64,000 nt of DNA from Chelydra serpentina (Eukaryota > Chordata > Testudines > Chelydridae). Both the position numbers and the translations under genes were made by a program. Position 1 is the stretch's first letter. Every line of letters starts with the position of its first letter. The stretch lies in the NCBI GenBank assembly GCA_037349315.1, contig JBAIAC010000004.1, positions 26,415,001 through 26,479,000 of the forward strand, in the 5' to 3' direction. Under the pieces are notes generated by a model. It searched no databases. It was not told the origin of the DNA and saw only the letters and a program-made list of their open reading frames with translations. Below, in pieces: positions 4,374 to 58,511 of this stretch.

Positions 4374-5253
4374 GACTTCTAGGGCTCTTAAAATCGATCT
4401 TGCCACTCCACCCCCAATGAGGGGATTAGCGCTTAAAGCGATATTGCCGAATCGATCTAGGCTTAGTGAGGACGAAATACGACGGTATTGGCCTCCTGGA
4501 TCTATCCCACAGTGCAACATTTGACCACTCTGGACAGCAGTCTGAGCTCAAATGCTCTGCCCAGGTACACAGGAAAAGCCCCACGCACTTTTGAATTTCA
4601 TTTCCTGTTTGGCCAGCATGGTGAGCTGCAGGTGAGTGCAGATCTCATCAGCAGAGGTGACCATGATGGAGTCCCAGAACCAAAGACGAGCTCCAGCATG
4701 GACCGAGCGTGAGATACGCGATCTGATCGCTGTATGGGGAGATGCAACCGTGCTAGCAGAACTACGGTCGAAAAGGCGAAATGCCAATACATATGCCAAA
4801 GTCTCCAAGGGCATGCAGGACAGAGGCTACAACAGGGACGGGCAACAGTGCCGCGTTAAAATTAAGGAGCTCAGGCAAGCCTACCAAAAAACCAGAGATG
4901 CAAAGAGCCGCTCTGGGTCAGAGCCCCAGACATGCCGCTTCTATGATGAACTGCATGCCATTCTAGGGGGTGCAGCCAGCACTGACCCACCCATGTGGTA
5001 TGACTCCGTATGTGGATCATCAGAAACCACCGAGGAGCATTTTCGGGAAGAGGAAGATGATGATAATCATGCTCAAACTAGTGCACAGACACAGCAAGGA
5101 AGCGGAGAAGCCCTTTTCCCTGAGAGCCAGGAACTTTTTGTCACCCTGGAGCCAGTACCCTACGAACCCACCCAAGGCGTGCTTGATGCAGGAGAAGGGA
5201 CCTCTGGTGAGTGTACCTCTGTGAAAGTAATACATGTTTTATAAACAAGCGTG

Positions 5254-5259: not shown

Positions 5260-5343
5260 GATTAATTCGCCCCAGTACAGCTACAGCTACTGGAAAAGTC
5301 TGTTCACATGTTTGGTGATGGAGCGGAAATCCTCCGGGGACAT

Positions 5344-5577
5344 CTACAGAAAGCTCTCCTGGATGTACTCCCAAAGCCTGTGCAAAAGGTTTCTTGGGAG
5401 GACAGCCTTATCCTGTGCGTCGTGGTAACACACTCTACCACGCCAGGCCAGTAGCACGTAGTCCGGAATCATGGCATTGCAAAGCATGGTGGCGTATGGT
5501 CCCGGTGTTTGCTGGCATTCAAGCAACATCCGTTCTTTATCTGTCTGTGTTATCCTCACAAGAGTGATATCATTCAT
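5344..5577 (-). pseudogene. H1 copy of conserved intronic antisense ORF, truncated
   Basis: Antisense to the Myb-like gene, inside its intron. The ATG at 5577 starts a 77-residue frame ending at TAG 5344-5346, where H3 has GAG. Without that stop the frame would continue to 5287, giving 96 residues like H2 and H3. Visible features are a CQQTPGPYA motif, a WRGRVCYH motif and LPRNLLHRLWEYIQESF. The frame is open upstream of the ATG too, but that proline-rich part is not shared by H2, so the ATG at 5577 is preferred. Function unknown; see the intact copies at 14803-15093 and 58221-58511. Confidence 0.75.
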
Positions 5578-6800
5578 GGTCACCTGTTTGAAATAGGGGG
5601 ATTTTATTAAGGGGGTATTCAGAGGGGTCCATCCCTGCTGGGCTGTTTGCCTGTGGCTGAACGGAAATCTTCCCCGCTGTGACCCACGCGGTGGGGGGGG
5701 AGGGGGAACAGCGAACATCTTGGATGTGTGTGTGTGTGGGGGGGGAGGGTGTCGATTAGGTTTGCACTGCACGTTAACCCAAAAACCGCCGCCCCCTCCC
5801 TTTTCAATTGCCAACCCTTTTTAAATTGTCAGCCCAAAGGCTGTTTGTTATGGGAAATGAGGGGGTTGCTGTTTGAAACCATTCCCACAGCCTATAGACT
5901 GTGGCTTACCATGGCTGCCTGCAAGCCGAATTCTGTTGCCCGCCGGACCTGCTTGTGTGATCTCTCACACCAAACCGGCAGACCCTCAATATAACAGGCA
6001 AAGTGCAACCTTGGACCAAATGCACATGTGCTATGTAATGTTTGGAGCATTGTTCTCTAATATGTGTCTTTTAAACTACTCCTCTCCCGTTTGTTTCCTC
6101 CCGCAGCTGCAAATGTTTCAATGCCACCCCTTTCATCACCGTCCCAGAGGCTAGCGAAGATTAGAAGTAAAAAAAAAAGGGAATCGAGACGATATGTTCT
6201 CAGAGCTCATGCAATCCTCCCACACTGAAACTGCCCAGCAGACTGTGTGGAGGCAGACACTGTCGGAGTCCAGGAAGGCAGAATTTGATCGCGGGGACAT
6301 GTGGCGTGCTGAAGACAATGACTGGCGGGATGAAGAGAGATAGCGGCAGGATGAAGAGAGTAGGTGGCGTCAGCGTGCAGAGAGAAGGCAAGATGCAATT
6401 CTGAGGCTACTGGAGGATCAAACGGAAATCCTCCGGCTTATGGCTGAGGAAAGGTGTATGGTTCAGGAAAGGCCGCCTGAGCCCAGACCGCCGCTACAGC
6501 CCCTATGTAACCAACAGCCCTCCTTCCCGAGTCCCATAACCTCATCCCCGAGACGCCCAAGAACGCGTTTGGGCGGCCTCCGTGCACCCAACCACTCAAG
6601 CCAAGAGAACAGTCCAAGCAACAAAAGGCTGGCATTCAATAAGTTTTAAAGTGCTGTGTGTCCTTGTCCTTCCCTCATCCCCTCCTCCACCACCCATCCT
6701 GGTGCTTCCCTTCCTCCACCACCCATCCTGGTGCTTCTCTTCCTCCACCACCCATCCCGGGCAACCGTGGCAGTTACCCCCATAGTTCCCTCTCTTTGTT

Positions 6801-8203
6801 TTACGAATTAATAGAGAATGCATGATTTTTAAGCAACAATGACTTTATTGCCTCTGCAAGTGGTGACCGAGGGAGGGAGGGCAGGGCGGTTTGGTTAAAG
6901 GGAAGTAGAGCATCCTGTCCATTCATGAAACTGGTTTTCAAAGCTTCCCTGATGCGCAACGCACCCTGCTGTACTCTTGTAATAGCCCCGGTGTCTGGCT
7001 GCGCATAACCAGCGGCCAGGTGATTTTCCTCAACCTCCCACCCCGCCATAAACGTCTCCCCCTTACTCTCACAGATATTGTGGAGCGCACAGCAAGCAGT
7101 AATAATAATGGGAATATTGGTTTCGCTGAGATCTAATCTAGTCAATAAACTGCGACAGCAAGCTTTTAAACGCCCAAATGCACATTCCACCACCATTCTG
7201 CACTTGCTCAGCCTATAGTTGAAAAGGTCCTGACTACTGTCCAGGCTACCTGTGTATGGCTTCATGAGCCATGGCATTAAGGGGTGGGCTGGGTCCCCAA
7301 GGATAACTATAGGCATCTCAACATCCCCAACGGTTATTTTCTGGTCTGGGAAGAAAGTCTCTTGCTGCAGCAGCCGAAACAGACCAGAGTTCCTGAAGAT
7401 GCGAGCGTCATGTACCTTTCCCTGCCATCCCACATTGATGTTGGTGAAACGTCCCTTATGATCCACCAGTGCTTGCAGCACTATTGAAAAGTAACCCTTC
7501 CGGTTTATGTACTCGCTGGTTTGGTGGTCCAGTGCCAAGAAAGGGATATGGGTTCCGTCTATCGCCCCACCACAGTTCGGGAACCCCATTGCTGCAAAGC
7601 CATCCAGTATGAGCTGCACATTTCCCAGACTCACAGCCCTTGGTACCAGCAGCTCGGTGATCGCCTTGGCTACTTGCATCACAACAGCCCCCACTGTAGA
7701 TTTTCCCACTCCGAATTGATTCACGACTGACCGGTAGCTGTCTGGCGTTGCAAGCTTCCACAGGGCTATTGCCATTCGCTTCTCTACTGTGAGGGCTGCT
7801 CTCATCTTGGTGTTCTGGCACTTCAGGGCAGGGGAAAGCAACTCACAAAGTTCCATGAAAGTGCCCTTATGCATGCGAAAGTTTCTCAGCCACTGGGATT
7901 CATCCCAGACCTGCAGCACTATGTGGACCCACCAGTCTGTGCTTGTTTCCCGGGCCCAGAATCGACATTCCACTGTATCAACGAGCCCCATTACCACCAT
8001 GATGTCCACCTTGCGGGGGGGGGGTGGCTTTTTTGAGAGAGGTCTGTGTCCATGTCCTCATCACTGTCCTCAGGGCGCTGCTGTCGCCTCCTCACCTGCT
8101 GTAGCTGTAGCAGCTCCTGGTTCTCGTTCTCCATATACTCCTGGACAATGCGCATGGTGTTCATAACGGCAATAACAGCCGCGGTGATCTGATCGTGCTC
8201 CAT
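6801..8203 (-). pseudogene. H1 Harbinger transposase, one frameshift
   Basis: DDE transposase of the PIF/Harbinger superfamily (HARBI1-like nuclease fold), which cuts and rejoins the element ends. The ATG at 8203 opens a ~58-residue N-terminal part (MEHDQITAAVIAVMN ...). A run of ten G's at about 8015-8024 (plus strand) then shifts the frame, and the rest reads openly from 8009 to 6801. In that 402-codon part I see a helix-turn-helix-like region (VVNQFGVGKSTVGAVVMQVA, residues ~94-113), D151 in GGAIDGTHIP, D201 in GKVHDARIF, D239 in LGDPAHPLM and E275 in RMVVECAFGRLK, so the catalytic residues are kept. Relative to H3 about 54 bp around the original stop are deleted, so the frame runs into the former 3' UTR and past its AATAAA. 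Only one indel separates this copy from a full frame. Confidence 0.92.
6844..6849 (-). promoter_or_regulatory. Poly(A) signal of H1 transposase
   Basis: AATAAA on the minus strand. It is in the 3' UTR of the H3 copy but inside the extended H1 reading frame, because H1 lost its normal stop region. Confidence 0.6.
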
Positions 8204-8478: not shown

Positions 8479-8553
8479 GCCCCCTCAAGGATTGGACTCG
8501 CAACCCTGGGTTTAGTGGGCCAACGCTCAGACCGCTGAGCTATCCCTCTGCCC
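8479..8553 (-). repeat. tRNA-derived module in H1
   Basis: On the minus strand this reads as a tRNA-like unit: an A-box TAGCTCAGCGG and a B-box GAGTCCAATCC about 43 bases apart. The intervening anticodon arm does not pair well, so I do not call a functional tRNA. The unit matches the head of a turtle-type tRNA/CR1 SINE as I remember it. A truncated relative is at about 8638-8665 and a second full one at 8953-9027. Confidence 0.65.
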
Positions 8554-8952
8554 GTATTATAGCGCGACTGAATCCCCAATAGACCTAATGTCCAGGCGTA
8601 CGCTGGCTCCATGCTTGCCATAGCAAACACGGAAACCACTGACCACTGAGCTATCCCTCTGCCCTTGTTCCAGGCAGTACTGAATCTCCCTTAAACAAAA
8701 CGTAAAAAAGAGAATGACCAGAGTCACTCTGGTCACTCCCATTTATGTCCAAGCGCCACTGGCCAGCCACACCATAGGCCAGCCAGGGGACAATGAATTT
8801 CAAACCTATTGCACAATCTGCAGCTAGAAGGCAAGGACCTTCTGCTGTGTAGTCCCGCCACTATGACCATTTATGGCATATTGTACCATCTGCTGCTAGA
8901 AGGAAAGGAGCTTATGCTGTGTAGTCCCACGACTACCAGCCCCAGGCGGAAT

Positions 8953-13948: not shown

Positions 13949-14483
13949 GCTGTGTTGATTTACACCAATTGAAGATTTTACCCCTTGTTTAGTAGCTGCA
14001 CAGATTGCTGTTTGTGCAGGCTGACATTTTGTATTAGCAAGCAAAGACGGGAAAAGCTGGAACTCAGGCCTGGTCTACAGTAGGAGTTTATGTCGAATTT
14101 AGCAGCGTTGACTCGAATTAACCATGCACCCATCCACACAACAAAGCTATTTATTTCGACATAAAGGGCTCTTTAAATCGATTTCTGTACTCCTCCCCGA
14201 CGAGGGGAGTAGCGCTAAATTCGACATGGCCGTGTCGAATTAGGGTTACTGTGGACGGAATTTGAAGCTAATAGCTCCTGGACCTATCCCACAGTGCACC
14301 ACTCTGTGGACACTCTGGACAGCAGTCCGAGCTCGGATGCTCTGACCAGTCACACAGGAAAAGACCCGGGAAAATTTCAATTCCTTTTCCTGTCTGGCCA
14401 GTTTGAATCCCATTTCCTGTTTGGACATCGTGGCTAGCTCAGCAGCACTGGCAATGATGCAGAGCTCTCCAGCAGAGGTTACC

Positions 14484-16584
14484 ATGCAATCCCAGAATAG
14501 AAAGAGGGCTTCCTCGGAGGTTTTCGCGGACGGGGAAGATGAGGAAGGAGATGAGGAGGACGAGGCAGTCGACAGCGCTTTCAACGCTGATTTCCCCGAC
14601 AGCCAGGATCTCTTCATCACCCTGACGGAGATCCCCTACCAACCCTCCCAAGGCGGTAACCCGGATCGTGAATCAGGGGAAGGATCCGTAGGTGAGCCTT
14701 TTAAACATTTATTTTGAATACAATAGGCATGCTATGTTAGCAATGGGTTTTTAATGATTAGTTTGCCATAGGCGCTTTAGTTTTTAGTCGTTGCCAGTGC
14801 AGCTACTGGAAAAGTCTGCTAACATGTCTGGGGATAGAGCAGAAATCCTCCTGGGACATCTCCATGAAGCTCTCCTGGAGGTACAGTGAAAGCCTTTGCA
14901 TAAGGTTTCTGGGGAGAGCGGCCTTATTGCGTCCTCCATGGTAGGATACTTTTCCGCGCCAGACTAGTAGCAGGTACTCCGGTCTCATTGCCTGGCAAAG
15001 CATGGCGGCATACGGCCCAGGTGTTTGCTGGCATTCACGCAGCATACGGTCTTTCTCTGTCTCTGTAATCCTCATCAGAGTGATATCAGTCATGGTGACC
15101 TGGTTTGAATTAGGTGACTTTTAGTATGGGGACTGGTTGCCTGTTTCTTTAAAGAAGAAGAAATGGCGGTTCTCAGCCACGTGATGGGGGTGAGGAGGGG
15201 GAACGTTTCTGCTTGGCGGTTTCCCGGCAGCTTGCAGGGATCTTTCCCGAGACCAGCCACGCGGTGGAGGCGGGGAGGCGGACCGTTCATGCTGAGCAGT
15301 TCCCCGGCAGCTTGCAGGGATCTTTCCCGAGACCAGCCACACGGTGGGGGTGGGGAGGCGGATCGTTCATGCTGAGCGGTTCACCAGCAGAATGCAGGGA
15401 CCATTCCCGGGGACAGCCACACGGTGGGGGCGGGGAGGCGGACCATTCATGCTGAGCGGTTCACTGGCAGAATGCAGGGACCGTTCCCAGGGACAGCCAC
15501 GCGGTGGGGGCGGGGAGGTGGACCGTTCACGCTGAGCGGTTCGCCGGCAGAATGCAGGGACCGTTCCCAGGGACAGCCACGCGGTGGGGGCGGGGAGGTG
15601 GACCATTCATGCTGAGCGGTTCACTGGCAGAATGCAGGGACCGTTCCCAGGGACAGCCACGCGGTGGGGGCGGGGAGGTGGACCGTTCACGCTGAGCGGT
15701 TCGCCGGCAGAATGCAGGGACCGTTCCCAGGGACAGCCACGCCGAGGGGGGAACAGGGGGAGAGTTCATGCTGGCCGTATCGCCGGCAGCAGGAAGTGGC
15801 CAATGCTAGGAGATGTGCTTGGAACGTGAAAGGACGGCGCTGCTGTAAATTAAGCTTTCAGCAGCCAAAAGTCTACAGCTTACCATGGCCGCCTGCTAGC
15901 CAAATTCCGTTGTCCGGCCCCGCTTGTGTGATCTGTACACCAAGACCCCAGGCACTCAATATAAAGATAGAAAATTCGACCTTGTAGTGAGTGCACATGT
16001 GATAGGTAGTGTGCATGGTCTTGTTCACAGGGAAAGACTATATTCATTGTTCGCGAAAATGTATCTTGGTTAGGAATTCACTTCCTTTTTTCCATCCCAC
16101 AGCTGCGAGTGTCTCCCGGCCTACCACGGCATCTCCCTCCCAGAGGCTGGCTCAGATCAGGCGGCGAAAAAAGAGAACACGGGACGAGATGTTCTCCGAA
16201 CTTATACTCTCTTCCCAAACTGAGTCGGCACAGCTGACTCAGTGGAGAGAGAACATGTCGCGAGCATCCAGAGAACGGGAGGAGAGGACGGAAGCAAGGG
16301 AGGACAGGTGGCGGCAGGAAGACCAGCAGGCGACTCAGACACTGCTTGGGCTAATGCGGGAGCAAACGGACATGCTCCGGCGCCTTGTAGATGTTCTGCA
16401 GGACCGGAGGCAGGAGGACAGAGTGCCACTGCATTCTGTCTCTAACCGCCCTCCCCCGCCACAAAGTCCCATTTCCCCCTCACCCAAAGTCCCAAGAAGG
16501 AGGGGAGGCAGGGGCCGTGAAAACATTCACTCCACCCCTGCAGACTGCTCAAGTAGCAGAAGGCTCTCATTCCCCAAGATTTGA
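14484..16584 (+). CDS. H2 Myb-like transposon protein lacking its Myb domain
   Basis: Two-exon gene matching the H1/H3 Myb-like genes at both ends. Exon 1 is 14484-14691 (GT donor at 14692); exon 2 starts after the CCCACAG at 16102 and ends with the stop at 16582-16584. The frame is uninterrupted across the junction. The ATG at 14484 (MQSQNRKRA) aligns with MESQNQRRA of H1; an upstream in-frame ATG at 14454 is possible. The whole trihelix domain, about 100 residues between QNRKRA and the acidic stretch before FPDSQDLFITL, has been removed in frame. What remains is the acidic linker, then a basic RRRKKRTRDEMF segment and a charged helical C-terminus. It cannot bind DNA as its relatives do but could still make the C-terminal contact. 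No stop or frameshift is visible. Confidence 0.72.
14752..14757 (-). promoter_or_regulatory. Candidate ATTAAA poly(A) signal of antisense frame
   Basis: ATTAAA on the minus strand, 46 bases past the stop at 14803. The wider TAATCATTAAA string is identical in H1 and H3. Confidence 0.5.
14803..15093 (-). CDS. Conserved intronic antisense ORF of Harbinger, H2 copy
   Basis: A complete 96-residue frame on the minus strand, inside the intron of the Myb-like gene. Compared with the H3 copy, 64 of 96 residues are identical, and many of the changes are conservative (D/E, V/L, I/L, K/R). Constant blocks are ITxTxKxRML, ECQQxPGPYAAML, the W-G-V-YHG cluster, K-LPRNL and the ending EDF-SI-HV-R-FQ. The ATG is preceded by AACCAGGTCACC, equivalent to AACAGGTGACC in H1, so an upstream exon ending at this AG is possible. 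I do not recognise the protein with certainty; the G-x-V-x8-K-x-LP-x-L-x6-Y pattern with several predicted helices faintly recalls the BEN DNA-binding domain. That resemblance is inference. Confidence 0.75.
   Translation of the reverse strand: MTDITLMRITETEKDRMLRECQQTPGPYAAMLCQAMRPEYLLLVWRGKVSYHGGRNKAALPRNLMQRLSLYLQESFMEMSQEDFCSIPRHVSRLFQ
15170..15755. repeat. 80-bp minisatellite in H2 intron
   Basis: About seven units of 80 bp, each with GACAGCCAC-CGGTGGGGGCGGGGAGG-GGACC-TTCA-GCTGAGCGGTTC-CCGGCAGAATGCAGGGACC as the core pattern. The first two units are more divergent (CTTGCAGGGATCTTTCCCGA). Units from about 15420 alternate between an ATTCAT...ACTGG and a GTTCAC...GCCGG type, giving a 160-bp higher-order repeat that suggests recent pairwise duplication. 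The unit is not a multiple of three, so the frames seen through it are not coding. Confidence 0.93.
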
Positions 16585-17340
16585 TGCGTCCTTTCCTTCC
16601 CTTCAACCGCACCCCACCCTAGCCCCCATCCCAGTTTCATCCCATAACTGTGTAGTCTTTAATAAAAAATACGTTTCTGTTAAGTACTGTTTCCTTCATT
16701 TTCTTTTAAAGGACGGTGTGTTTGAAGGGGGGGACGGGGGTTGGTAATTGGAGAGGATAGGCATCTTTACCAGGGTACAGACACGGGGGCAGGTTCACCA
16801 GAAAGTTATACACACATTGCAGTCCTTAGGTAGCCTGGTCAGTCTGGGAGGTAGTTTTCATGTTCTGTGTGGGGGGGGCTATGTGACTTTGTGGTGGTTG
16901 CAGATCTTCCGCAGCGGTCCGGAGCCAGGATGACATAGCCACGCAGCAGGGGATCTGTAACCGCCCTCCGCCGCCACAAAGTCACATAGCCCCCCCACAC
17001 AGAGTCCCAAAAAGGAGGGGTGGCAGGCTCCATAGAAACAACCAGTCGACCCCTGCGGACTGCTCTAGGAGCAGGAGCCTGTCAGTCCCCGAGTTTAGAA
17101 GCCACCTTTCCATCACTCCACCCGCACCCCACCATAGCCTGCATCCCAGTTTCAACCCTTTAACGTGAAATCCTTAATAAAAAGAAGGTTTTCATGAACA
17201 ATGTTTCCTTTATTTTCTGCTTAAAGGTGTGTTTGAACGGGGGGAAGGGGTTGGTAATTGGAGAGGATAGGCAACATTAACTGGGTAAAGAAACGGGGGC
17301 GGGGGCAGGTTCAGCTTCTGTTTAAACAACCGTAAGAGTC
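16443..17340. repeat. ~510-bp tandem duplication of the convergent gene ends in H2
   Basis: TAACCGCCCTCC at 16443 recurs at 16958, and TTGGTAATTGGAGAGGATAG at 16741 recurs at 17251. The repeated block holds the end of Myb-like exon 2, its AATAAA signal (about 16662 and 17176) and a copy of the last codons of the convergent transposase (about 16827-16860, compared with 17340-17375). The inner copies are non-functional leftovers. Divergence between units shows the event is not recent. Confidence 0.85.
16866..17005. repeat. Inverted repeat inside the H2 duplication
   Basis: TCTGTGTGGGGGGGGCTATG at 16866 continues to 16899 and is matched in inverse orientation by 16973-17005 (ending CCCCCCCACACAGA). 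About 33 bp pair nearly perfectly around a 73-base loop. Confidence 0.8.
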
Positions 17341-18622
17341 ACTGGTTACCCTGGTCAGTGTGGAAGCTAGCTTTCAAAGCTTCCCGGATGCGCAGCGCGT
17401 CCCGCTGGGCTCTTCTAATCGCCAGGGTGTCTGGCTGCGCATAAGCAGCAGACAGGCGATTTGCCTCAACCTCCCACCCTGCCATAAACATCTCCCCCTT
17501 GTTCTCACAGAGATTGTGGAGCACACAGCAAGCTGCAATAACAATGGGGATATTGGTTTCGCTGAGATCAGAGCGAGCCAATAAGCTTCTCCATCTCCCC
17601 TTCAGACGTCCAAAAGCACACTCCACCACCATTCTGCACTTGCTCAGACAGTAGTTGAAGAGCTCCTTTTCACTGTCCAGGGTGCCTGTGTACGGCTTCA
17701 TGAGCCAGGGCATTAGCAGGTAGGCTGGGTCCCCGAGGATCACTATAGGCATCTCCACATCCCCAACAGTTATTTTCTGGTCCGGGAAGTAAATACCTTC
17801 CTGAAGCCATCTAAACAGACCAGAGTTCCTGAAAACGTGAGTGTCATGAACCTTGCCCGGCCATCTGATGTTGATGTTGGTAAAACATCCCTTATGATCC
17901 ACCAGTGCTTGCAGCACCACTGAAAAGTAGCCCTTTCAGTTAATGTACTGGCTGCCCTGGTGGTATGGTCCCAGGATAGGGATGTGAGTTCCATCTATAG
18001 CCTCACCGCAGTTTGGGAATCCCATCGCAGCGAAGCCATCTATGATCACCTGCACATTTCCCAGGGTCACTACCTTTGAGAGCAGCAGCTCAACGACTGC
18101 GTTGGCTACTTGCATCACAGCAACCCCCACGGTAGATTTGCCCACTCCAAATTGATTCGCGACTGACCGGTAGCTGTCTGGCGTTGCAAGCTTCGACAGG
18201 GCTATGGCCACTCGCTTCTGGACTGTCAGGGCTGCTCGCATCCGGGTGTCCTGGTGCTTCAGGGCAGGGGACAGTAACTCACAAAGTTCCAGGAAAGTGC
18301 CCTTATGCATCCGAAAGTTTCGCAGCCACTGGGATTCATCCCAGACCTGCAGCACTATGCAGTCCCACCAGTCTGTGCTTGTTTCCCGGGCCCAGAATCG
18401 CTGTTCCACTGCATCAACATGACCCAGTGCCACCATGATGTCCAGGGTGTGGGGTCCCGTGCTTTGTGAGAGGTCTGTGCCCCTCTCATCGTCACTGTCC
18501 TCACCGCGCTGCCATAGCCTCCTCGCCCGATTTCTCAGCATCTGCCTCTGAAAAAGGTGGACGATAAGGCGCGAGGTGTTGACAATGGCCATAACTGCAG
18601 CGATGATTGCAGCGGGCTCCAT
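17339..18622 (-). pseudogene. H2 Harbinger transposase, one internal TGA
   Basis: Harbinger DDE transposase starting at the ATG at 18622 (MEPAAIIAAVMAIVN) and ending at 17339, 428 codons including the stop. The frame is kept throughout apart from one TGA at 17936-17938, where H1 and H3 have arginine (QYIN-stop-KGYF against EYINRKGYF). CGA to TGA is the usual outcome of CpG methylation decay. The catalytic set remains: D in EAIDGTHIP, D in LGDPAYLLM, E in RMVVECAFGRLK. The acidic N-terminal linker (GEDSDDERGTDLS) corresponds to that in H1. Its 3' end converges on the Myb-like gene through the duplicated block. Confidence 0.92.
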
Positions 18623-19101
18623 GCTCGCGGTGCTGTGTCGTCCGCGCTGTCAATCACTAGAAAAGGGTGCGAAATGACTGCCTGCCGCCGCTCTCACGGA
18701 GGGAGGGGGGAGTGAGGGTTAAATGACGACAGTTACCCAAAACCCCCCACAACACATTTTTTGCCCCAGCAGACATTGGGGGCTTGACCCAGAATTCCAA
18801 TGGCCAGCGGGGACTGCGGGAATTGTGGGATAGCTACCCACAGTGCACCGCTTGCAATGTCAACGCTTGCCCCGTTACTGTGGACTCACAAAATCGAATT
18901 ACTGTCCTTAGTGTTGATACACACGTTCGAATTTGTAATATCGGTTTCACAAATTCGGTTTAAGTAAAATCGAACTACTCTCGTAGTGTAGACATACCCT
19001 CATACAATCATTTCAGTTTAAATGGTGTATTCTACTTCTTCAAAGTGTTTTGTATTAGAATAATCAAAGAGAATTGTCATTATTAGCATCTCTGTCCAGA
19101 G

Positions 19102-55299: not shown

Positions 55300-55374
55300 G
55301 GCAGAGGGATAGCTCAGCGGTCTGAGCGTTGGCCCGCTAAACCCGGGGTTGCGAGTTCAATCCTTGAGAGGGCC
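55300..55374 (+). repeat. tRNA-derived module in H3
   Basis: The best-kept copy of the tRNA-like unit: A-box TAGCTCAGCGG at 55310-55320 and B-box GAGTTCAATCC at 55353-55363, 43 bases start to start. It is in the same position relative to the transposase as in H1, about 275 bp upstream of the ATG and in the same direction. The anticodon arm does not fold properly, so it is a SINE-type head rather than a tRNA gene. Confidence 0.7.
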
Positions 55375-55649
55375 AGGAGATGATGATGGATATCAAGCAT
55401 ATTGAACCATCTGCAGCTAGAAGGGAAGGTGCCTAACCGTTGCTTCCCGGCATATTGTACCATCTGCTGTTAGAAGGAAAGGAGCCTAACCCTTTCTTCC
55501 CCCCTCCCTCCGAGAAAGCAGCAGAGGGGGGAGCCCCAAATCCTTTCGCGCCTTTTTTCATGCGGGTGCCATATTGCTGACACCATTGTTATCCACCCGC
55601 CGCTTCTGCTCCCACTCTGCTGTCCTGCAGACACCATACCAGGGAAAAC

Positions 55650-57008: not shown

Positions 57009-58220
57009 GTCATTGTTGCTTAAAAATCATGCATTCTTTATTAATTTGTAAAACAAAGAGAGGGAACTATGGGGGTAACTGCCATGGTCGCCCGGGACAG
57101 GTGGTGGAGGAAGAGAAGCACCAGGATGGGTGGTGGAGGAGGGGATGAGGGAAGGACAAGGACACACAGCACTTTAAAACTTATTGAATGCCAGCCTTTT
57201 GTTGCTTGGACTGTTCGCTTGGCTTGAGTGGTTGGGTGCACGGAGGCCGCCCAAACGTGTTCTTGGGCACTCGGGAAGGAGGGCTGTTGGTTACACAGGG
57301 GCTGTAGTGGTGGTCTGGGCTCAGGGGACCTTTCCTGAACCATACGCCTTTCCTCAGCCATAAGCCGGAGGATTTCCGTTTGATCCTCCAGTAGCCTCAG
57401 AATTGCATCCTGCCTTCTCTCTGCATGCTGATGCCACCTACTCTCTTCATCCCGCCGCTATCTCTCTTCATCCTGCCAGTCATTGTCTTCAGCACGCCAC
57501 CTGTCCCCGCGATCAAATTCTGCCTTCCTGGACTCTGACAGTGTCTGCCTCGACGCATTCTGCTGGGCAGTTTCAGTGTGGGAGGATTGCATGAGCTCTG
57601 AGAACATATCGTCTCGATTCCCTTTTTTTTTACTTCTAATCTTCGTTAGCCTCTGGGACGGTGATGAAAGGGGTGGCACTGAAACATTTACAGCTGCGGG
57701 AGGAAACAAACGGGAGAGGAGTAGTTTAAAAGACACATATTAGAGAACAATGCTCCAAACATTACATAGCACATGTGCATTTGGTCCAAGGTTGCACTTT
57801 GCCTGTTATATTGAGGGTCTGCCGGTTTGGTGTGAGAGATCACACAAGCAGGTCCGGCGGGCAACAGAATTCGGCTTGCAGGCAGCCATGGTAAGCCACA
57901 GTCTATAGGCTGTGGGAATGGTTTCAAACAGCAACCCCCTCATTTCCCATAACAAACAGCCTTTGGGCTGGCAATTTAAAAAGGGTTGGCAATTGAAAAG
58001 GGAGGGGCGGCGGTTTTCGGGTTAATGTGCAGCACGAACCTAATCAACACCCTTCCCCCCCCACACACACACACATCCAAGATGTTCGCTGTTCCCCCCC
58101 CCCCCACCATGTGGGTCACAGCGGGGAAGATTTCCGTTCAGCCACAGGCAAACAGCCCAGCAGGGACGAACCCCTCTGAATACCCCCTTAATAAAATCCC
58201 CCTATTTCAAACAGGTGACT

Positions 58221-58511
58221 ATGAATGATATCACTCTTGTGAGGATAACACAGACAGATAAAGAACGGATGTTGCTTGAATGCCAGCAAATACCGGGACC
58301 ATACGCCGCCATGCTTTTCAAAGCAATGATTCCAGACTATGTGCTACTGGCCTGGTGTGGTAGAGTGTGTTACCACGGAGCACAGGATAAGGCTGTCCTC
58401 CCAAGAAACCTTTTGCACAGGCTTTGGGAGTACATCCAGGAGAGCTTTCTGGAGATGTCCCCGGAGGATTTCCGCTCCATCACCGTACATGTGAACAGAG
58501 TTTTCCAGTAG
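58221..58511 (+). CDS. Conserved intronic antisense ORF of Harbinger, H3 copy
   Basis: Intact 96-residue frame in the intron of the Myb-like gene, opposite in strand to it. Starts at ATG 58221 (MNDITLVRIT); an open frame reaches back to a GTG at 58215 only. Preceded by TATTTCAAACAGGTGACT, which could be a splice acceptor. Ends with the tag at 58509-58511, followed 29 bases later by ATTAAA. Compared with H1 it differs at few positions over the shared part (for example W-C-G for W-R-G), and it keeps the last 19 residues that H1 has lost. No signal peptide or membrane segment; slightly basic, mostly helical in appearance. Function unknown; a small DNA-binding domain is my best guess. Confidence 0.75.
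   Translation: MNDITLVRITQTDKERMLLECQQIPGPYAAMLFKAMIPDYVLLAWCGRVCYHGAQDKAVLPRNLLHRLWEYIQESFLEMSPEDFRSITVHVNRVFQ

Follow-up and report, generated by a model that had tools for sequence, protein, structure and literature searches.

The 64,000-nucleotide stretch analysed here, referred to as the window, lies on contig JBAIAC010000004.1 of the turtle Chelydra serpentina (GenBank assembly GCA_037349315.1, positions 26,415,001 to 26,479,000 of the forward strand) and holds three copies of a Harbinger transposon, H1, H2 and H3. Within the intron of the Myb-like gene, antisense to that gene and downstream of the transposase on the transposase strand, each copy carries a further reading frame. It is intact and 96 residues long in H2 (14803-15093, minus strand) and H3 (58221-58511, plus strand), whose proteins share 64 of 96 residues (66.7%), and has the same form in H1 (5344-5577, minus strand) apart from a single TAG after 77 codons. 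The frame appears to be the coding exon of a two-exon gene lying antisense within the Myb-like intron, and turtle Harbingers probably carry this gene as a third one, its second exon encoding a protein with a BEN-like fold. At the level of the DNA, the recurrence of its sites across lineages, constraint on its amino acids and its association with the transposase and Myb-like genes argue for this reading.

The frames had been described in an initial annotation, and their coordinates, the 64 shared residues and the late stop in H1 were all reproduced. The ATTAAA that it placed 28-46 bases past the stop begins 28 nt past the stop in H3, 28 nt past the ancestral stop in H1 and 47 nt past the stop in H2, and the CAG/GT-type sequence that it saw before the ATG coincides with the proposed acceptor, AG/GT standing immediately 5' of the ATG of exon 2 in all three copies. 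H1 and H3 are 92% identical along 4.3 kb and H2 belongs to a different subfamily. Between H1/H3 and H2 only two blocks of the Myb-like intron align, one at the leader end of the intron (66% identity in H1-H2) and one of roughly 332 bp that covers the acceptor region and the frame (79-80% identity). A minisatellite (15174-15750, period 80, 7.2 copies) sits within the BEN-like intron of H2, so the surroundings of the H2 frame are not conserved, as the annotation had also stated. The remaining five frames of the exon contain 1 to 6 stops each in H2 and H3.

Constraint and copy context of the antisense frame

The ratio of nonsynonymous to synonymous change (dN/dS) between subfamilies had been set beforehand as a check, and it is well below 1. 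By NG86, the BEN-like exon gives 0.33-0.34 between H2 and either H1 or H3. For these copies the transposase gives 0.31-0.33 and Myb-like exon 1 0.43-0.44, the latter over only 58 codons because the rest is lost in H2. When the same substitutions were placed at random, equally few amino-acid changes arose in 0.7-1.0% of trials. A divergent, older lineage of 15 copies (L009-L023) was found in the same genome by a BEN-like protein search, and comparison of the exon with it gives a median dN/dS of 0.32-0.35 at a synonymous divergence (dS) near 1; between H1 and H3, both decaying copies, the ratio is 0.78. Codon models gave omega 0.57 for 42 copies (log-likelihood, lnL, -2537.8 vs -2551.8 at omega 1; 2 delta lnL about 28) and 0.51 for eight lineage representatives chosen by the authors (lnL -1330.6 vs -1340.2 at omega 1; 2 delta lnL about 19). 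These models include transition bias, kappa for the omega-1 fit being the best value of a grid; their trees include post-insertion neutral decay, which pulls omega toward 1; the NG86 ratios (0.33) are lower. The 42-copy set omits L001, L041-L063 and later loci.

The notion of a chance open frame or conserved non-coding DNA, which could draw on the shared ancestry of recent copies that inflates conservation, on the picking of most of the 42 copies by BEN score and on one low antisense frame (0.37), is practically eliminated by the rejection of omega = 1 in both codon models, by dN/dS above 1 in both shifted forward frames and in the other two antisense frames, by the stops of the 0.37 frame, whose codons have their third positions in common with the sense codons, and by the recurrence of the frame in lineages with 37-55% protein identity.

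Copies were collected from the 2.28-Gb genome that holds the window. The H3 protein query returned 13,257 first-look candidates ranked by protein score; 148 of the best 150, which were those scored, have no stop, and 7 of the best 150 scored with the H2 query are broken, counts that are biased toward open frames by the ranking and choice of copies by BEN score. Full contexts were fetched for 19 copies, 17 chosen for one shared BEN score and two that headed the list. In 18 of them transposase sequence lies upstream on the same strand, and in all 19 Myb-like exon 1 is antisense downstream, partial or split in some; the transposase is open along 431 codons in four, and two have an open frame in transposase, BEN-like exon and Myb-like exon 1 alike. 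Among the 3.3-kb loci of the old lineage, 13 of 15 have the antisense Myb-like exon 1 and 10 of 15 the transposase.

A sample blind to the BEN-like exon was drawn from a transposase search (26,263 candidates, best 103 scored) by taking rows 2 to 22 of the ranking with one exception, 20 copies in all (row 1 is H1, and row 19 was skipped without a reason), and fetching only the expected 551 bp for each copy. The exon is present in 20 of 20 and open across all 96 codons in 18; one of the others (L045) has a frameshift near codon 50, and in the other (L063) the match stops at codon 92. Two of the twenty also occur in the list ranked by BEN score. Breakage in most autonomous copies had been named in advance as the outcome that would speak against a gene, and the opposite was seen; together with omega at 0.51-0.57, this sample supports the claim of a third conserved gene beyond the two of a Harbinger. 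The copies are related, so the counts are not independent. Eleven of the twenty, all from one subfamily, have a mean difference of 0.9% across about 408 bp, which indicates that this subfamily amplified recently. Dozens of transposase copies in the genome also have equal scores and frames that are open over long stretches, which points to a recent burst of Harbingers.

Proposed two-exon organisation and features of the elements

The proposed gene would begin with a short leader exon that has a TATA-like box and terminates in the start codon (ATG/GTRAG). Exon 2 would open at AG/GTGACC and encode a single-domain protein of about 99 residues with a BEN-like fold, with ATTAAA beyond its stop. Transcription would start from the TATA-like leader, nested in the Myb-like gene on the opposite strand, and splicing would join the two exons.

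The old lineage bears most directly on where translation starts. The exon-2 ATG of H1-H3 is absent at that codon in 15 of 15 old copies (one of them, L012, has an ATG two codons before that position), an in-frame TAG that belongs to the acceptor itself immediately precedes the exon in 14 of 15, and the next in-frame ATG, where present, is usually exon codon 18. With a stop directly before exon 2, full-length translation in this lineage requires splicing. In a donor scan of the BEN-like strand, all seven copies scored share a strong donor, ATG/GTAAGC, ATG/GTAAGA or ATG/GTGAGT. Of 45 copies, 36 have an exact ATGGTRAG at most 1,400 bp upstream, against 1.68 expected from shuffled sequence; the set omits L001 and L064 (the window itself), L042 and L043 (the same places as L002 and L003) and loci shorter than 3 kb. 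The implied introns measure 134 to 784 bp, and six of the nine copies lacking the exact motif have a decayed form at the corresponding place, the other three having none. Three of the five ATGGTRAG occurrences in the full window are the H1-H3 start-codon sites. The start-codon context is mostly Kozak-like (GCAGCCATGG or CCAGCCATGG), and 31 of the 36 copies with the motif have TATAWW no more than 95 bp upstream.

Between H3-type and H2-type copies, leader identity is 80, 78 and 73% and exon 2 identity 79, 84 and 82%, with the intron near the shuffled level; toward the old lineage exon 2 retains 68-70%. The ATG/GTGAGT leader design is also present in an additional older Harbinger lineage lying beside a young copy (L031:36-2566), whose BEN-like exon is 37% identical to that of H3. 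Intron length is variable: the BEN-like introns of two relatives of H2 (L065 and L066) measure 383 and 621 bp.

A single-exon gene of 96 residues starting at the exon-2 ATG, as originally drawn, would suit H1-H3 and the young copies, which have that ATG, in most cases as ACCATG, and mostly an open frame. The codon is without an ATG throughout the old lineage, the upstream stop closes the frame in all but one of those copies, and a leader ending in ATG/GT recurs instead, which makes this version very unlikely; the annotated third gene is still supported, with its probable conserved start codon at the end of an upstream exon.

The Myb-like gene of H1 has a comparable 5' design (window 4617-4668), CAGCATG/GTGAGC and then AG/GTGACCATGATGGAG; that of H3 has GTG, not ATG, at the corresponding donor.

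The coordinates of the gene and of the elements around it are given in Table 1. Profile matches identify the H1 transposase (DDE_Tnp_4, E 2.6e-32) and Myb-like exon 1 (Myb_DNA-bind_4, E 6e-21). Terminal inverted repeats with a 3-bp target duplication were found for H2 only, the ends of H1 and H3 not being resolved. The two H2 relatives named above retain the SANT domain in Myb-like exon 1. A similar tRNA-like stretch (GGGATAGCTCAG...), perhaps a short interspersed element (SINE), lies near the transposase-side end of H1 (8516-8560) and of H3 (55300-55380); ARAGORN found no tRNA over the 64-kb window.

Table 1. Positions of the putative BEN-like gene and of neighbouring Harbinger features in the window.
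Feature	Position	Strand	Remarks
H2 coding exon 2, BEN-like gene	14803..15099	-	GTC ACC ATG ... TAG; 96 codons from internal ATG, 98 from acceptor
H2 putative BEN-like intron	15100..15883	-	784 bp, GTAAGC...CAG; holds 80-bp-period minisatellite 15174-15750
H2 putative start codon	15884..15886	-	final three bases of exon 1, GGCCATG/GTAAGC
H2 TATA-like box TATATT	15958..15963	-	77 bp upstream of start codon; function putative
H2 ATTAAA	14750..14755	-	likely polyadenylation signal
H1 BEN-like exon 2	5287..5583	-	premature TAG at 5344-5346
H1 putative BEN-like intron	5584..5909	-	326 bp
H1 putative start codon (exon 1 end)	5910..5912	-	TATA-like box 5988-5993; ATTAAA 5254-5259
H3 BEN-like exon 2	58215..58511	+	modelled protein begins at ATG 58221
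H3 putative BEN-like intron	57891..58214	+	324 bp
H3 putative start codon (exon 1 end)	57888..57890	+	TATA-like box 57807-57812; ATTAAA 58540-58545
H2 Harbinger element	14067..18999	-	imperfect terminal inverted repeats; TCA duplication 14064-14066 and 19000-19002; by eye
H2 Myb-like exon 1	14484..14691	+	SANT domain lost by internal deletion
H2 Myb-like exon 2	16103..16584	+	
H2 transposase	17339..18622	-	frame broken between 17920 and 17936
H1 transposase	6801..8203	-	DDE_Tnp_4 in 8009-6801; N-terminal part in different frame
H1 Myb-like exon 1	4663..5206	+	Myb_DNA-bind_4

Predicted host chimeras and predicted fold

Three protein searches, one of which was limited in its scoring to the 7,994 candidates with the most words in common, recovered 25 distinct relatives: all 15 named ones are turtle proteins, from eight species, and the other ten are unnamed contig proteins. 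No relative was found in viral contigs and no match in phage records. Four of the named models, all of them gene predictions, fuse the exon to a host protein: in Chrysemys to isoforms of Rab-3C and CENP-Q, in Malaclemys to one of CDK6 and in Mauremys to a GlyT1-like protein. In the CDK6 and Rab-3C models the match to the solved host protein ends at most four residues from the junction, and in the CDK6, Rab-3C and CENP-Q models the BEN-like part begins at the acceptor or one codon earlier; the GlyT1-like join is less clear. These joins suggest that the exon, with its own acceptor and ATTAAA, can act as a captured last exon.

The protein is predicted to fold like a BEN domain, with which chromatin proteins of the host bind DNA. 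An AlphaFold model of the H3 protein (predicted local distance difference test, pLDDT, 92.7) has five helices arranged as in the BEN fold, a feature seen on this one predicted model, and Foldseek with the same model placed BEN domains in its top 15 structural rows. The vague resemblance to BEN domains noted in the initial annotation is thereby supported by predicted-fold comparison, while no sequence profile detects BEN.

Several observations weigh against a leader-started gene with a BEN-like product. Five of the 36 motif copies, all old, have no TATAWW, and leader identity toward the old lineage is 70% in one comparison and 52%, no better than shuffled, in another. In four turtle models (one in Malaclemys, one in Pangshura and two in Chelonia) the exon is joined to N-terminal sequence of the transposase instead of the leader. 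As to the fold, Foldseek gave no match at E <= 0.001 (best 0.098), pLDDT exceeds 90 in only two of five AlphaFold models, and the model from the divergent lineage, at 50.5, says nothing either way. In Pfam neither the single proteins nor two alignments matched a BEN profile, and an alignment-profile search of PDB sequences found no BEN. Some of the proteins are near neutral in charge. Finally, Arg316 of BANP is the CpG-selecting residue (PMC11472053), and it is paired with Gln or Glu in the young proteins. Residue 96 of the H3 model, where the H3 protein ends, pairs with BANP 316. The residue at this position varies between groups of copies: 23 of 24 young copies have Gln (the remaining one stops short of it), 18 of the 20 picked by transposase have Glu or Gln, and 7 of the 9 old copies long enough to include it have Arg.

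The transposase fusions raise the alternative that the exon serves chiefly as an alternative terminal exon of the transposase gene, giving an N-terminus-BEN-like fusion that might be a truncated regulator or repressor. This was the first idea, demoted once the leader exon had been found. The four models make the join in frame and the exon lies on the transposase strand, about 2.4 kb downstream; a fifth turtle model runs from the transposase via intron-like sequence into the exon. In H1 a donor in the transposase N-terminus, at which one of the Chelonia models joins, scores 11.2, above the leader donor at 9.1. That donor is not present as GTRAG in the recent copies sampled, the models join at four different transposase positions, and two of the join sites have weak donors in the copies scored (4.4 and 0.4, vs 8.8-10.3 for the leader donor). 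Since a leader exon with a start codon recurs across lineages and all of the fusion models are predictions, this alternative is held to be improbable.

It is comparably doubtful that the fold assignment is wrong and that the protein is a small helical domain merely resembling BEN. The term BEN-like fold is used, and membership of the BEN family by descent is not claimed, because there is no match at the sequence level.

Possible function and known systems

For the two-exon gene proposed here, there are roughly even chances that the product is a DNA- or chromatin-binding accessory to the transposase and Myb-like pair. Harbinger transposition needs both proteins, of which the Myb-like protein imports the transposase into the nucleus and binds the element ends (passages cited of PMC9179366). 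Given a system in which both partners are required and one already binds the ends, the simplest role for a third protein is that of an accessory which binds DNA or chromatin; it would act at the element ends, at target chromatin or at the element's own promoters.

The principal functional alternative, to which a distinctly smaller chance is given, is an anti-silencing factor or an antagonist of host defence that lies outside the transposition machinery. The vaccinia protein E5 contains BEN domains. E5 is described as inhibiting cGAS (PMC10201048), BEN proteins such as BEND3 as working in heterochromatin and repression (PMC11472053), and fungal DNA transposons as encoding a TET/JBP dioxygenase (PMC12730594). 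The pattern of constraint does not tell the two roles apart.

A wider proposal is offered tentatively. The turtle elements may be transposons of a three-gene class whose BEN-fold protein, captured or convergent, reads or counters the chromatin of the host, for instance with unmethylated CpG as its target or through relief of silencing, and so aided the recent expansion. The predicted CDK6, Rab-3C and CENP-Q isoforms might then be examples of a continuing process in which the trap-like terminal exon gives host genes a BEN-like domain.

A search of mainly non-subscription literature, outside Repbase, where prior notice is possible, found no Harbinger with a third gene, an antisense gene or a BEN domain, nor any such report on turtle or crocodilian Harbingers; for third or antisense frames and for BEN domains in transposons this rests in part on the top matches of long listings. 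The one paper matched for Harbinger together with BEN domain, on lateral transfers in Lepidoptera, mentions each term once. A third gene under transposase-like constraint would mean that the Harbinger machinery, or the way it is controlled, is not fully known even though this vertebrate family is abundant and was active recently. A BEN-like product would in addition tie DNA transposons to the BEN chromatin readers, and the gene would let two ideas be tested, that a transposon can encode a chromatin factor and that host genes can capture its exon.

Among known systems, the BEN domains of BEND3 (BEN4), BANP, NACC1, BEND6 and insensitive differ from the turtle protein, which lacks sequence similarity to them in profile searches and stands alone at about 99 residues. 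PIF/Harbinger transposons are the closest known system: the turtle copies have a DDE_Tnp_4 transposase and a Myb_DNA-bind_4 protein together, a 3-bp target duplication (in H2) and very many copies. Harbingers are presented in the passages cited as two-gene elements with a DDE transposase and a Myb/SANT-like protein (PMC9179366, PMC8437027), whereas the turtle elements add a nested antisense third gene in every lineage sampled. ISL2EU, described as Harbinger-like with a YqaJ exonuclease as its second gene (PMC9179366), likewise pairs such an element with a different accessory gene; as presented there, the YqaJ gene replaces the Myb-like gene, whereas the putative accessory gene of the turtle elements is added inside the Myb-like intron.
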